From Salinisphaera sp. Q1T1-3 (GTDB taxonomy: Bacteria; Pseudomonadota; Gammaproteobacteria; Nevskiales; Salinisphaeraceae): a DNA stretch of 64,000 bases. The position numbers and the translations under genes are program-made. The notes beneath the pieces were generated by a model. That model saw only the letters and a list, made by a program, of their open reading frames with translations, was not told the DNA's origin and did not search any database. Below are positions 28,139-50,823 of the stretch, one piece after another (within the stretch, counting starts at the first letter, position 1; each line of letters opens with the position of its first letter). The stretch spans positions 124,001-188,000 of the forward strand of contig NZ_QZWD01000004.1 in assembly GCF_003602005.1 (NCBI RefSeq). The letters are read 5' to 3'.

Positions 28139-28750
28139 ATGCCGTCCGACCCTTCGCGCTTTCTCCCCGGCCTCGCGCTCGCCCTCGTGCTTCTGGCCGC
28201 CGGGTTGCCCTCGACCGCGGCCGCGCTCCAGATCACGACGGACTGGCACGAGGAACCGCACGCCGATCCCCAGGGCCAGCTCGCTGCGCCCGTGCTGGCC
28301 GCCGCCGTGCGCAACGACGATCACATCTACGAACTGCATCTGATCTGCGGCACCGATCAGTACAACGGCAACGACGACAGCGCGCGCATGGCGGGGCCGG
28401 TGCTGGAACTGGCCGTGTCGAGCTTCAACGGCGACGAATCGCATGCCGCCTACGGCGGCGATGCCGATACACCGTACAAGGCCCGGCTGGCATTCGGCCG
28501 GATGTCGCCGGTCACCCAGCCGTTTCGTCGCGACGGTTATCCCAACGTCATTTCCGTGGCCTTCGGTGCCGATACGCCGCTGGCCGGCAAACCGGCCGCC
28601 CAGCGCCTGGCAACAGCGGCCCGGGCCGGCCAGTCGATCACGATCGGCGGCCTGATCGGCCACGAGACCGTGCGTCTGCCGATCTCCACCGAAAATGACC
28701 GCGTCGCCGCTTTTCTGAAGGCCTGCCCGCTCACACGCGCGGCGCGTTAG
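28139..28750 (+). CDS. Exported protein of unknown function
   Basis: The 203-residue protein has a signal peptide (FLPGLALALVLLAAGLP then STAAA) and a beta-rich mature part of about 170 residues with two cysteines (LICGTD and KACPLT). I do not recognise the family. It follows the DUF2452-like gene by 70 bases on the same strand. Its stop overlaps the convergent aroG stop by four bases, so there is no room for a terminator between them. Confidence 0.65.
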   Translation: MPSDPSRFLPGLALALVLLAAGLPSTAAALQITTDWHEEPHADPQGQLAAPVLAAAVRNDDHIYELHLICGTDQYNGNDDSARMAGPVLELAVSSFNGDESHAAYGGDADTPYKARLAFGRMSPVTQPFRRDGYPNVISVAFGADTPLAGKPAAQRLATAARAGQSITIGGLIGHETVRLPISTENDRVAAFLKACPLTRAAR

Positions 28751-29823
28751 CCGCCGTCGCGGTTGCCGCCGAGCGCCGCTGCCGTCTCGCGCAGTGTTGC
28801 CTCGGTGTCGTCCCAGCCAAGGCAGTCGTCGGTGACCGACTGCCCGTAGGCGAGCTCTCCGCCGAGTGATTGCTTGCCGGCGGCCAGATTGGACTCGAGC
28901 ATCACACCGACCACGCCGGACTCGCCGCTCTGCCGACGTGCCACGAGATCGGCCAGGACCGCCGGCTGGCGTGCGGCCTGCTTGCCACTGTTGCCGTGGC
29001 TGCAATCAACGACGACGCGTGGGTTCTGGCCGGCGATGGTCAGCCGCTCGACCGCCGCGGCCACCGCGCCGGCATCATAGTTCGGGCCGGACCGGCCACC
29101 GCGCAGAATGAGATGCGTATCCGGGTTGCCGGGCGTGGCCACCGCCGCCGGCGCGCCCGTCGTGGCGTCGATGCCGAAATAGCACTGCGGGCTTGCGGCC
29201 GCGGCCATGGCATCGCAGGCCGAGCCGATCTCGCCCTCGGTCCCGTTCTTGAACCCGACGGCCAGATCGAGCCCGGACATGCGCTCGCGATGGGTCTGGG
29301 ATTCCGTGGTCCGGGCGCCGATGGCCGCCCAGGCCAGCGTGTCCTCGAGATAATCGGCCGCGATCGGGGTGAGCAGCTCGGTGGCGATCGGCAGACCGAG
29401 ATCGGCCAGCTCGATCAACAGCTCGCGCGAGACCGCCAGGCCACGGGCCAGATCATTGACCCCGTCGAGGTCCGGGTCGTGCAGCAGCCCCTTCCAGCCG
29501 ATGGTCGTGCGCGGCTTTTCCACATAGACCCGCATCACGATGAGCAGTTCGTCGGACAGTTCATCGGCCAGGCGCGCGAGGCGGCGACCATAGTCCAGTG
29601 CGGCCTGCGGATCGTGCACCGAGCACGGGCCGACAACGACCATCAGACGCGGGTCGTCGCCACGCAGCACGGCCCGGATCGCCTCGCGCTGGGCCGCGAT
29701 ACGGGCACGCGTCATCGCCCCGATCGGCAGACGCTCGGCCAGCGCCGCCGGGCTTGGCAACGGCGTCGCGCCCGTCCGGCCAGCGGTTTCGGCACTATTC
29801 AGTGTGGCTACACGGGCAGTCAT
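28747..29823 (-). CDS. aroG: 3-deoxy-7-phosphoheptulonate (DAHP) synthase, class I
   Basis: The 358-residue enzyme condenses phosphoenolpyruvate and erythrose 4-phosphate to DAHP, committing carbon to aromatic amino acids. Active-site motifs are LMVVVGPCSVHDPQAALDYG, VYVEKPRTTIGWKGL, VGFKNGTEG, LILRGGRSGPNYDA and VVDCSHGNSGKQ. The start at 29823 (MTARVATLNSAETAG) was chosen because the frame above it has no family sequence. The 250-base upstream region contains an aromatic leader peptide and a terminator (29976-30113), so expression is probably attenuated by charged aromatic tRNAs. Which amino acid inhibits the enzyme allosterically cannot be read. Confidence 0.97.
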   Translation of the reverse strand: MTARVATLNSAETAGRTGATPLPSPAALAERLPIGAMTRARIAAQREAIRAVLRGDDPRLMVVVGPCSVHDPQAALDYGRRLARLADELSDELLIVMRVYVEKPRTTIGWKGLLHDPDLDGVNDLARGLAVSRELLIELADLGLPIATELLTPIAADYLEDTLAWAAIGARTTESQTHRERMSGLDLAVGFKNGTEGEIGSACDAMAAAASPQCYFGIDATTGAPAAVATPGNPDTHLILRGGRSGPNYDAGAVAAAVERLTIAGQNPRVVVDCSHGNSGKQAARQPAVLADLVARRQSGESGVVGVMLESNLAAGKQSLGGELAYGQSVTDDCLGWDDTEATLRETAAALGGNRDGG

Positions 29824-29975
29824 GGCGCGCTCCGGTTGCGGCCGTCGCACGGACGGCGAGGCTATGGGTGGGCCAGCAGTTCGGGCTCGGACGGCCGAGC
29901 CGATCACCTGCGCCGGGCGGCGCCGTTGTCGCAAGGATGGACATCGATTCAATTCCTGTGTCGTCTGTTTCGGAT

Positions 29976-30014
29976 CCAAAAAGAAAACCCCGGCCGGGAA
30001 GACCGGCCGGGGTT
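29976..30014 (-). terminator. Attenuator terminator hairpin
   Basis: On the minus strand a perfect 12-bp stem (AACCCCGGCCGG/CCGGCCGGGGTT) with a five-base loop is followed by TTTTCTTTTT. It lies about 160 bases before the aroG start. Since it is also 180 bases after the mnmC stop, it would end mnmC transcripts as well. Confidence 0.92.
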
Positions 30015-30068
30015 GGATCAGACAACACGATCGGCAGGCTTCCCGAGGGACGCCTGCCGGGTATCGGT

Positions 30069-30113
30069 TCAGGCGCCTGGAGGGCTAAACCAATACCCGT
30101 AAAACTTGACCAC
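30069..30113 (-). CDS. Aromatic leader peptide of aroG
   Basis: This 14-codon frame reads MVKFYGYWFSPPGA from a GTG start, then TGA. Five of the codons are aromatic (TTT, TAC, TAT, TGG, TTT) within seven positions. It lies between the mnmC stop (30193) and the attenuator hairpins, the expected place for a leader peptide. No strong ribosome site is seen before the GTG and no in-frame ATG exists nearby, so the exact start is the weakest part. The aromatic cluster in front of a DAHP synthase gene is very unlikely to be chance. Confidence 0.75.
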   Translation of the reverse strand: MVKFYGYWFSPPGA

Positions 30114-30192
30114 GCACGACGACGCATCGCGAGCCGTGAGGCACGCTGCGATGGCCGGTGATGGCGTGTGTTCGATCAGCATGGACGTTACG

Positions 30193-32190
30193 CTACGCCA
30201 TGTCCTGATCCGGCGCAACACGGCCGCGGATGATCTGGCGGATCAGCCAGCGCCCCGGGTGCAACGCCTCGACGAGATCGCCGGCCACCGGCTGCGGGGC
30301 ACCGGTGAGCGCCGAGGCCAGCATCTCGGCCGCCAGCGGTGCCCGCAGCATGCCGTGCGAACCGTGCGCGAGGGATACCGAAAGCCCCGGCCACAGCGCA
30401 CCGGCCGTGGTGACCGGCTGTGTGGCATCGTGACCGAGCGCGGCATAGTCCGAACACCATCGCGCGCGATCGGGCACACCGCCGACCAGCGGCAGGCGGT
30501 CATGGCTCGTGCAGCGCCAGCTTGCCCGGCCACGCACATCCGCGACGGCAATCGCCGCGGCCAGGTCCGGAAGCAATGCACCGATCAGACCGCGATTGGC
30601 TTCATGCTCGGCGTCATGAACGACGAGATCGGCCGCACGTGGCTCATAGGTGGCGCCAACGCTCTGGCGCCCGCCCCGTGCCGGCAGCACATAGCCCCTG
30701 TCGCAGACCACACACGCCGGCGACGCATCGTTGCCGGCCCCGGCCAGCGCGAAGTGCGAGGCCTGCCCCCGTACCCGGCCGAGCGGCGGCAGATCGGGAC
30801 ACAGCATCGCCGCCGCTCCGGCATTGGCCAGCACGACATGATCGAACACGGCCCAGCCGCCGGCGTCGTCGACGACAGCCCAGCCCGCCTCGTGACGGGA
30901 CAGCGCCGTGACGTGATGGTCGCGCCATGTCACGCCGGACCGTTGCACAAGCCAGGCGCACAGGGCCGCCGGCCGGACACTGGCGCCACCGGGGAAATAC
31001 AGACCACCCCGGACATCCGATGCGAGCCGGGTGCCCGCAAGCTTGGCGGCCGTCGCGGCGTCCACACCATGTACCACGGACCTGGGCAGGCCCAGGCCCG
31101 CGAGCATCCGGGCCTGGCGATCCACCTCGTCGCGGCTGCGGGCCAGCTGCAGCAGACCGCAGTCCTGCCAGAGCGTGCGCTCGGGATCATGATCGGCAAG
31201 CCAGCGTGTCGCATAGGCGAGCGCGGCCAGATCAAAGCGCGTACGCACGGTGGGCTCGACCGCGAGCCGCGGGCTCAAGGCTGCGTCGCGATTACCCGAT
31301 GCCCCGCCGCCCGGCCCGGCGGCGTCGTAGATCGTCACCTCGCGCCCACGACGGGCCAGGGCATCGGCCACGGTCGTGCCGGCAATCCCGGCGCCAATCA
31401 CGGCGATACGACCGTGCGGCGGTACTGCCGACGGCTGGCTGTACCACGGCCGCGCATCGCCAGCGCGCCCGGTCGCCTGGCCCTCGAAGCGGCCGGTCAG
31501 CATGTGGCGCTTGCGCGCGAAGCCCGGTCGCCGCGTCCAGACGAACCCGGCCGCCGTGAGCGCATCACGCAGCCCCCGGGCCGCACTGTAGGTTGCCATC
31601 GTCGTACCGGGGCGGCTGCGCGCGGCCAGGGCCTGACACAACGCGGGCGACCACATGGCCGGATTGCGCGCCGGGGCGAACCCGTCCAGAAACCAGGCAT
31701 CGACCTGTCCCTCGAAGGCGGCCAGCCCTGCCTCGGCCTCGCCGAGGTACAGATCAAGCGTCACGCGCGGCGCCAGTGCCAGCCGGTGCATACCCTGCAC
31801 CGGCGCCGGCCAGAGGCTTGCCAGTCGTTCGATCTGCACGGTCAACGTCGGCCAGCGGGCTACCAGACGACGCAGATCGGCAGCACGCAACGGATGGCGC
31901 TCGACCGAGAACAGATGCAGACGGGCACGCGGTGGCGCCTGCGTCTCGAACAGCGCCCAGGTCGCCAGCATGTTGCGCCCCGCGCCGAAACCGGTTTCCC
32001 CGACCACGAAGACCTGTGATGCGGCGAGACCGGCCAGCCGTGCCGACAGGTCGTTTCCGTCCAGAAAAACGTGCCGGCTCTCGTCGAGGCCGCCTTCGCG
32101 CGCGCAGTAGACGTCATCGTAGTCGGGCGCATGCATGCCGTCCTCGCGATGGACGACCCGCGCATACGCCAGGCCCAGCGGCATGCTCAT
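30193..32190 (-). CDS. mnmC: tRNA 5-methylaminomethyl-2-thiouridine biosynthesis bifunctional protein
   Basis: The 665-residue protein fuses two activities for the wobble uridine of tRNAs for Lys, Glu and Gln. The N-terminal methyltransferase domain (residues about 1-235) has the VFVVGETGFGAGRNMLATW SAM-binding motif and DAWFLDGFAPARNPAMW. The C-terminal FAD oxidase domain starts at IAVIGAGIAGTTVADALARRG (about residue 263) and removes the carboxymethyl group of cmnm5U. Length and order match E. coli MnmC. It is transcribed after the zinc-ribbon gene, 49 bases downstream. Confidence 0.96.
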   Translation of the reverse strand: MSMPLGLAYARVVHREDGMHAPDYDDVYCAREGGLDESRHVFLDGNDLSARLAGLAASQVFVVGETGFGAGRNMLATWALFETQAPPRARLHLFSVERHPLRAADLRRLVARWPTLTVQIERLASLWPAPVQGMHRLALAPRVTLDLYLGEAEAGLAAFEGQVDAWFLDGFAPARNPAMWSPALCQALAARSRPGTTMATYSAARGLRDALTAAGFVWTRRPGFARKRHMLTGRFEGQATGRAGDARPWYSQPSAVPPHGRIAVIGAGIAGTTVADALARRGREVTIYDAAGPGGGASGNRDAALSPRLAVEPTVRTRFDLAALAYATRWLADHDPERTLWQDCGLLQLARSRDEVDRQARMLAGLGLPRSVVHGVDAATAAKLAGTRLASDVRGGLYFPGGASVRPAALCAWLVQRSGVTWRDHHVTALSRHEAGWAVVDDAGGWAVFDHVVLANAGAAAMLCPDLPPLGRVRGQASHFALAGAGNDASPACVVCDRGYVLPARGGRQSVGATYEPRAADLVVHDAEHEANRGLIGALLPDLAAAIAVADVRGRASWRCTSHDRLPLVGGVPDRARWCSDYAALGHDATQPVTTAGALWPGLSVSLAHGSHGMLRAPLAAEMLASALTGAPQPVAGDLVEALHPGRWLIRQIIRGRVAPDQDMA

Positions 32191-50747: not shown

Positions 50748-50823
50748 GCTCCCTTCGTCTAGCGGTCCAGGACGTCGCCCTCTCACGGCGAAAACAGGGG
50801 TTCGAGTCCCCTAGGGAGCGCCA
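50748..50823 (+). tRNA. tRNA-Glu, anticodon CTC
   Basis: A complete cloverleaf is visible. The 7-bp acceptor stem is GCTCCCT/AGGGAGC, the anticodon stem TCGCC/GGCGA with loop CTCTCAC (anticodon CTC at 50782-50784), and the T arm GGGGTTCGAGTCCCC. The discriminator base is G and the 3' CCA is encoded. It decodes GAG. It stands alone, not in a tRNA cluster. Confidence 0.97.

Follow-up and report, generated by a model that had tools for sequence, protein, structure and literature searches.

A probable transcription attenuator with a mixed Phe-Tyr-Trp leader peptide ahead of a DAHP synthase gene

Leader peptides ahead of DAHP synthase genes

Aromatic amino acid synthesis begins with DAHP synthase, which acts as its gate. 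In the enterobacterial his, trp, and pheA operons, attenuation combines the codons of a leader peptide with competing helices and a terminator. The locus described here has a switch order that resembles that of his. It differs from all three in that its leader carries codons for three amino acids, in that a different gene lies behind it, and in that most relatives have a second open reading frame (ORF) as well.

The closest described systems come from elsewhere. In C. glutamicum, aroF is preceded by a leader, aroR, that contains Phe-Tyr-Phe (available portions of PMC11802643, PMC7356990, and PMC4046766). To which amino acid does it answer? The excerpts disagree on Tyr: the review PMC11802643 has the leader responding to Phe and not to Tyr, whereas PMC7356990 describes control by both, which it calls translational. 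Compared by description, aroR is alike in being a mixed aromatic leader peptide before a DAHP synthase gene and unlike in that no Trp is named and that C. glutamicum belongs to another phylum. In Acholeplasma, the uORFC-13-1 motif before aroF consists of a predicted upstream ORF with Phe plus a terminator (PMC8632094, in the part available); by description, the ORF and the terminator before aroF are shared, but only Phe is named. The kind of control is therefore not new, as both of these elements precede the same gene. The element at the present locus is real and conserved, an attenuator of a familiar type made unusual by the three residues of its leader. Since the leader covers three end products and persists in three families, experiments can ask how a single switch weighs the three signals against each other.

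The leader and hairpins between mnmC and aroG

The window, meaning the whole 64-kb stretch of DNA that was analysed, carries aroG on its minus strand behind the same-strand gene mnmC. The interval between them holds a leader (ORF1), hairpins, a terminator, and then a small second ORF (ORF2). The features are the following.

30193 to 32190, minus strand: mnmC, upstream same-strand neighbour of aroG (NF002480, 612 bits), ending at 30193
30213 to 30218, minus strand: -35-like TTGCGC within the mnmC 3' end, 17 bp ahead of TAGCGT
30190 to 30195, minus strand: -10-like TAGCGT, overlapping the mnmC stop codon and ending 7 nt before the leader ATG
30069 to 30182, minus strand: leader ORF1, probably 37 codons with ATG 30182 as start; aromatic core Phe-Tyr-Gly-Tyr-Trp-Phe at 30104-30087
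29987 to 30111, minus strand: match to the full length (1-119 of 119) of the Rfam model RF00627 (P15), 49.3 bits, E 7e-9
30059 to 30098, minus strand: aromatic-codon hairpin of the minimum free energy structure, codons GGGTATTGGTTTAG (30098-30085) with CTGAACCGATACCC (30072-30059), the latter at and after the stop
30070 to 30077, minus strand: segment 1, GGCGCCTG, the final codons of the leader and part of its stop, pairing with segment 2
30049 to 30056, minus strand: segment 2, CAGGCGTC, able to pair with segment 1 or segment 3
30033 to 30045, minus strand: segment 3, CGGGAAGCCTGCC, pairing with segment 2 or with 30001-29995; its first 7 bases are the antiterminator 5' arm
29995 to 30001, minus strand: segment 4, CTTCCCG, in the terminator loop and 3' arm, the antiterminator 3' arm and partner of segment 3 in the swap test
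29978 to 30014, minus strand: intrinsic terminator, 12-bp stem (30014-29986) and then the T tract TTCTTTTT, conserved and covarying
29795 to 29944, minus strand: ORF2, 49 codons, overlapping the aroG start by 29 nt, at the site where relatives have their second leader
28747 to 29823, minus strand: aroG, DAHP synthase of 358 aa with ATG 29823 (TIGR00034, 425 bits; NF009395, 472 bits)

The initial annotation had proposed a 14-codon leader. That frame is found on the minus strand, from GTG 30113 to TGA 30069; it translates as VVKFYGYWFSPPGA, and its codons 4-9 read Phe-Tyr-Gly-Tyr-Trp-Phe. The GTG start was not kept, as the frame stays open upstream to ATG 30182, where it translates as MLIEHTPSPAIAACLTARDASSCVVKFYGYWFSPPGA. 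The ATG is favoured because an upstream in-frame ATG is kept in 14/14 Salinisphaeraceae loci; the 71 Halomonadaceae-type leaders tested all have an in-frame ATG as well. Judged by sequence, ORF1 probably has 37 codons.

How might such a leader be translated? The annotation had left both the GTG start and the lack of a ribosome site as puzzles, and the upstream ATG is the likely answer to the first. The second stands as far as the motif goes: a scan found no ribosome-site motif before ORF1 in the window, and one precedes the leader in 4/14 Salinisphaeraceae, 49/71 Halomonadaceae-type, and 51/51 Pseudomonas-like loci. The best-scoring promoter pair upstream of the first leader ATG starts with TTG in 14/14 Salinisphaeraceae loci, with a spacer of 17 in 12 of them, 16 in L006, and 18 in L012. 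Its -10-like box lies 7 nt from the ATG in the window (L001) and in L002, L003, L007, and L013, and 10-29 nt away in the rest of the 14; the loci with a ribosome-site motif (L008-L011) have 25-29 nt. With only 7 nt between box and ATG, the ORF1 transcript of the window may be leaderless, starting at about ATG 30182, which would account for the missing ribosome site; this is a likely answer that draws on a promoter-like pair known as a consensus match only.

All of the attenuator parts that had been described are present at the locus. The hairpin ten bases past the ORF1 stop is GGCAGGC/GCCTGCC (30058-30052 with 30039-30033). The 12-bp GC terminator with its T tract lies at 30014-29986, and the 7-base antiterminator complement joins CGGGAAG (30045-30039) to CTTCCCG (30001-29995), which lies across the loop and the 3' arm of the terminator. 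The aromatic-codon hairpin (30059-30098) is an addition, with a matching helix in the Rfam P15 model, and is likely the no-translation state. Folding energy of the element is 6.85 sd below that of shuffles.

Could all this be the ordinary terminator of mnmC, followed by a chance ORF and by an aroG gene with its own downstream promoter? The terminator does come directly after mnmC on the same strand. Against this, when the 378-base region 29823-30200 was shuffled 4000 times with its dinucleotides preserved, a leader with five or more aromatics within 6 codons arose in 0 of 4000 cases. Fifteen shuffles gave at least 4 in 6, and 0 of these 15 had a terminator 10-90 nt past the stop. At L126, moreover, leader and terminator precede aroG beside a different gene, which we take to be ttcA-like, and the antiterminator covaries in Halomonadaceae (see below). 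A stricter promoter scan revealed no promoter-like site between terminator and aroG, though it found none anywhere in 29500-30700. We regard the mnmC explanation as extremely unlikely.

We consider it highly probable instead that the element is a ribosome-mediated transcription attenuator controlling aroG by a his-like logic. The sequences and their comparison show the leader and how it is conserved, the terminator, and possible competing helices; from these we infer translation, stalling, folding order, the direction of the response, and the response to tRNA charging. With Phe-, Tyr-, and Trp-tRNA all charged, translation would run to the leader stop and the ribosome would cover segment 1. 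Segments 2 and 3 would then pair, the terminator would form, and transcription would stop short of aroG. Shortage of an aromatic tRNA would stall the ribosome on the Phe, Tyr, or Trp codons just upstream of segment 1 and leave that segment free. Segment 1 would then pair with 2, and segment 3, released in this way, would bind the loop and 3' arm of the terminator, allowing transcription of aroG. With no translation at all, the aromatic codons would pair with the bases past the stop, 2:3 would pair, and the terminator would form. The spacing can be read from the loci: about 9-13 nt separate the start of the Phe codon in the YWF motif from segment 1, and L002, L003, and L013 have extra aromatic codons beyond YWF. 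A ribosome stalled at the Tyr codon would spare segment 1, which would be hidden under a ribosome that had reached the stop.

Conservation and competing helices in three families

How widely is the arrangement kept? In the genus and family of the window, 61 genomes were searched, all of which have some DAHP synthase. A close aroG orthologue (at least 61% identity) occurs in 14 of the 61, the window's genome included, and aroG is preceded in 14/14 by a terminator and, before that, by an in-frame leader that starts with ATG and has its aromatic residues clustered, for example as YFYGYWFSR. The Halomonadaceae-type set consists of the best 80 of 562 relatives minus L046 and L047, which repeat contigs already covered. 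Nearly all of the resulting 78 loci belong to named Halomonadaceae genera, and one comes from Gammaproteobacteria bacterium MFB021. By script, 71 of these 78 have leader and terminator, and five further loci under the script thresholds (L066, L077, L080, L094, and L119) show both by eye. As L076 and L095 are cut off upstream, the testable loci number 76, and among these, drawn from the best 80 of 562 relatives, the leader is found in 76/76. Pooling Salinisphaeraceae and Halomonadaceae-type loci, the script count is 85/92, with 2 of the 7 misses cut off upstream. Pseudomonas-like loci have the leader in 52/52 cases (51 by script, L172 on re-examination), a count that is less independent than those of the other two sets because the loci were picked by RNA-family match. 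In 51/51 of them a terminator stands behind the leader, and a DAHP synthase gene lies at most 400 nt from the leader stop.

Do the residues themselves persist? Phe, Tyr, and Trp all occur within the last 20 leader codons in 14/14 Salinisphaeraceae, 70/71 Halomonadaceae-type, and 51/51 Pseudomonas-like leaders. This comparison across relatives supports the original proposal, that a mixed Phe-Tyr-Trp leader would control a terminator before DAHP synthase. At the loci examined outside these sets the leader was not found. Four more distant relatives of the enzyme from other families (L215-L218, 49-54% identical) have no such leader, only a chance ORF at L217, and 16 loci from other families of the order have none either, with two chance ORFs. 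In the 500 nt upstream of a paralogous DAHP synthase (47-50% identical), scanned at 15 genus and family loci, there was no aromatic leader; the scan gave only a chance 11-codon ORF at L038, and L039 offered just 97 nt. Three genomes of the same genus or family (G001, G015, and G016) have matches to this paralogue alone.

Codon choice bears on a further reading, that the leader is a general sensor of slow translation and not specific to aromatic tRNA. In the last 20 leader codons, Phe is TTT 246 times and TTC 46 times (246/292); in the aroG bodies of Salinisphaeraceae and Halomonadaceae-type loci, the corresponding numbers are 35 and 201 (35/236). These genes seldom use TTT, which may slow ribosomes regardless of the amino acid. 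Tyr is TAT in 247/326 cases in the leaders and in 181/499 in the aroG bodies. Yet the aromatic residues are kept while the Tyr codons switch between TAT and TAC, and we judge the general sensor very unlikely compared with a leader that answers to aromatic tRNA.

The competing helices of the proposed aromatic-tRNA switch can be followed in the alignments. For Halomonadaceae, 42 sequences were chosen for diversity out of the 78 loci. Helices 1:2 and 3:4 pair in 92.7% of cells, with 7/16 pairs changed on both sides; 0/500 shuffles equalled this, and slid versions pair in 33-53%. The alternative structure, 2:3 plus terminator, was likewise equalled by 0/500 shuffles (slid versions, 32-63%). Segments 1 and 2 change together, as GGTGTGCC with GGCACACC, GGCGTGCC with GGCACGCC, and GGGGTGCC with GGCACCCC, and so do segments 3 and 4, as GGGTTGCC with GGCAACCC and GGGCTGCC with GGCAGCCC. 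In an alignment-free swap test on Halomonadaceae-type loci, a locus's own segments beat swapped ones in 61/71 cases for 1:2 and in 57/71 for 3:4.

Within Salinisphaeraceae the picture is mixed. The swap test favours the locus's own 3:4 in 14/14 loci and its own 1:2 in 3/14. Helix 1:2 is paired in 99% of cells among 13 sequences and shows no covariation because its segments are nearly invariant; 1:2 plus 3:4 on this alignment is not above shuffles (101/500). The aromatic-codon hairpin is paired in 76.5% of cells, with 3/11 pairs changed on both sides. Together with 2:3 and the terminator, it exceeds all shuffles in paired cells, double-change cells, and covariation score, and does not do so in the number of double-changed pairs (83/500) or in pair types (330/500). 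In Pseudomonas-like loci, where the segments hardly vary, the means for own and for swapped segments are nearly the same (1:2, 19.0 versus 19.2; 3:4, 15.8 versus 15.7), with own above swapped in 27/39 for 1:2 and 30/39 for 3:4. The conservation of paired segments that the initial annotation had proposed as a check is borne out by covarying competing helices in Halomonadaceae. At the level of aligned sequences, a mutually exclusive antiterminator is backed by covariation in Halomonadaceae, with mixed evidence within Salinisphaeraceae.

Energies point to how such a switch would have to work. Modelled over distinct sequences, the antiterminator gains with a stalled ribosome, compared with one at the stop, in 9/14 Salinisphaeraceae, 57/69 Halomonadaceae-type, and 28/38 Pseudomonas-like cases; the model is flat or runs the wrong way in 5/14 Salinisphaeraceae. 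For the window it gives 11.7 kcal/mol (stalled) versus 18.4 kcal/mol (at stop), a gain of 6.7 kcal/mol. The terminator is favoured on average in every group and state, and also in 13/14 of the Salinisphaeraceae stalled states. The switch must therefore be kinetic, acting during transcription.

The P15 RNA family and a second open reading frame

As listed above, the entire P15 model of Rfam aligns to the element, which shares its core, hairpins, and terminator. Its 49.3 bits lie below the gathering cut-off of 70 bits, and the standard Rfam scan reported a tRNA only; it is for this reason called a likely P15 homologue and not filed as a member. That tRNA, at 50748-50820 on the plus strand, is the sole Rfam match over its cut-off in the window. 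Another genome of the same genus, G002, scores 69.8 bits. A permissive Rfam scan of six Halomonadaceae loci also matched RF00627 (best 45.2 bits, E 4.2e-6). Among 274 genomes drawn evenly from the class, 5 had P15 at an E value of at most 0.001, the window's genome being one of them. Matches occur in 53/56 genomes in the genus of one genome, G221, and in 113/148 of its family, 110/148 being over the cut-off; this family, the source of the 52 Pseudomonas-like loci, is presumed to be Pseudomonadaceae because of its P15 score. Our own RNA model, R1, matched 57/369 genomes of the class at E 1e-4, and matches weaker than about 1e-8 were taken as plain terminators. The six best genomes belong to Salinisphaeraceae, a Pseudomonas-like family (f165), and a Halomonas-like family (f175). 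Some Rfam matches were set aside. A P15 match in G075 (L130) was taken as chance, there being no aromatic ORF, and P37 (RF01678) was dropped, with weak matches in two Halomonadaceae loci and none in 4 genomes or control genomes. No T-box was among the 9 Rfam matches up to E 1 in 29700-30400, and neither T-box nor riboswitch appeared among the window matches.

If the window element is attenuator-like, what is P15? Rfam scan output types it as a gene and names no leader ORF. P. aeruginosa PA1750 is, we assume, the gene behind P15. The same gene is termed a shikimate biosynthesis protein in the available part of PMC4263517, and P15 is named among the small RNAs detected by Livny et al. (PMC2375449, in the portion available). 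P15 might accordingly be a free-standing, trans-acting small RNA whose aromatic codons are incidental, and both the Rfam type and that detection favour this. However, three families keep the frame, the ATG, and the aromatic residues ahead of the same gene, and a terminated leader would itself register as a small RNA. We find the trans-acting explanation improbable to a high degree and P15 likely better read as a ribosome-mediated attenuator, the element described here being its likely identity. On this reading, an RNA family that is listed as a small RNA of Pseudomonas acquires a probable function. By analogy with peTrpL of Sinorhizobium, a leader peptide with a reported trans role (PMC7298713, as far as its excerpt goes), an additional trans role for the leader may exist. 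The accessible text of the open-licence literature held no account of attenuation at PA1750, of a Pseudomonas DAHP synthase leader peptide, or of P15 as an attenuator.

Past the terminator lies ORF2, which, together with a potential pseudoknot, would form a further layer before aroG; in relatives it is usually rich in aromatic residues. It is present in 68/78 Halomonadaceae-type loci (L048-L125; from the best 80 of 562 relatives), where it has about 40-60 codons and contains WRF. It stops at or close to the start of aroG, in most of these loci with a run rich in Tyr ahead of that end. The loci without it are L053, L057, L070, L073, L083, L087, L101, and L107, plus the cut L076 and L095. The WRF codons are TGG CGA TTT in 68/68 cases, although selection was on the residues WRF and not on the codons. 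Pseudomonas-like loci have ORF2 in 49/51 by script, and in 51/51 when the similar Tyr-rich ORFs read at L150 and L179 are included (L172 stands outside this count). Is the frame real? The sequence TGGCGATTTA is in frame with an ATG behind a ribosome-site motif in 71/73 Salinisphaeraceae and Halomonadaceae-type and 49/49 Pseudomonas-like cases; the other two frames qualify in 5 and 1 of 73 and in 0 and 0 of 49.

The ORF2 region continues downstream into CGGTCGG...GCCACC-T-CCGACCG...GGTGGC, a potential H-type pseudoknot. In an alignment of 54 sequences, five of them Pseudomonas-like, that left out L077 and L090 (Kushneria, with differing repeats) and near-identical sequences, 97.9% of cells pair and 5/13 pairs are changed on both sides; 0/500 shuffles equalled this, and slid versions pair in 26-50%. 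The potential pseudoknot occurs in most Halomonadaceae-type and ten Pseudomonas-like loci. The latter (L161-L164, L167-L171, and L174) have in common pseudoknot-type repeats (RSGQ.AASDRS..GG), and the ORF2 of the remaining Pseudomonas-like loci is without the SDR motif.

What might ORF2 do? Our guess is a second check, at the level of translation. Two leader peptides also precede ermB, in translational attenuation (PMC8274638, as excerpted); relatives with ORF1 and ORF2 resemble it in that number, but ermB is induced by drugs and senses no amino acid. Three other ideas were set aside. We do not claim that the ORF2 segment CACCTCCG sequesters the ribosome site of aroG, because this is possible at some loci and not at others. 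Fusion of ORF2 to aroG by frameshifting was rejected, as their frame relation varies by species, and a candidate ORF2 in a reduced genome (L217) was rejected as well, its Tyr-rich start being in frame with aroG and the N terminus of AroG itself. A wider reading, which we hold tentatively and with slightly more doubt than conviction, is that aroG is guarded by two serial aromatic leader peptides, the ORF1 transcription attenuator and, past the terminator, an aromatic-rich ORF2 that ends near the aroG start, in many species through a conserved pseudoknot, and that acts as a translational check on aromatic tRNA supply. The set would span Pseudomonadaceae, Halomonadaceae, and Salinisphaeraceae, the terminated ORF1 RNA would be the catalogued small RNA P15, and the window's lineage would have kept ORF1 and let ORF2 decay. 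No description of a second ORF with a potential pseudoknot was found in the available text of the open-licence literature.

In the window, the position of ORF2 is kept and the aromatic cluster of its relatives is absent; the ORF has no NCBIfam match. Across Salinisphaeraceae its place is kept in 14/14 loci, with that of L008 frame-shifted, and TGGCGATTTA occurs only in L004, L005, and L009. The aroG matches at L008 (in G002) and L011 (in G006) contain in-frame stops, one TAA in the former and one TGA plus one TAG in the latter; these stops and the shifted ORF2 of L008 may reflect decay, sequencing error, or alignment ends.
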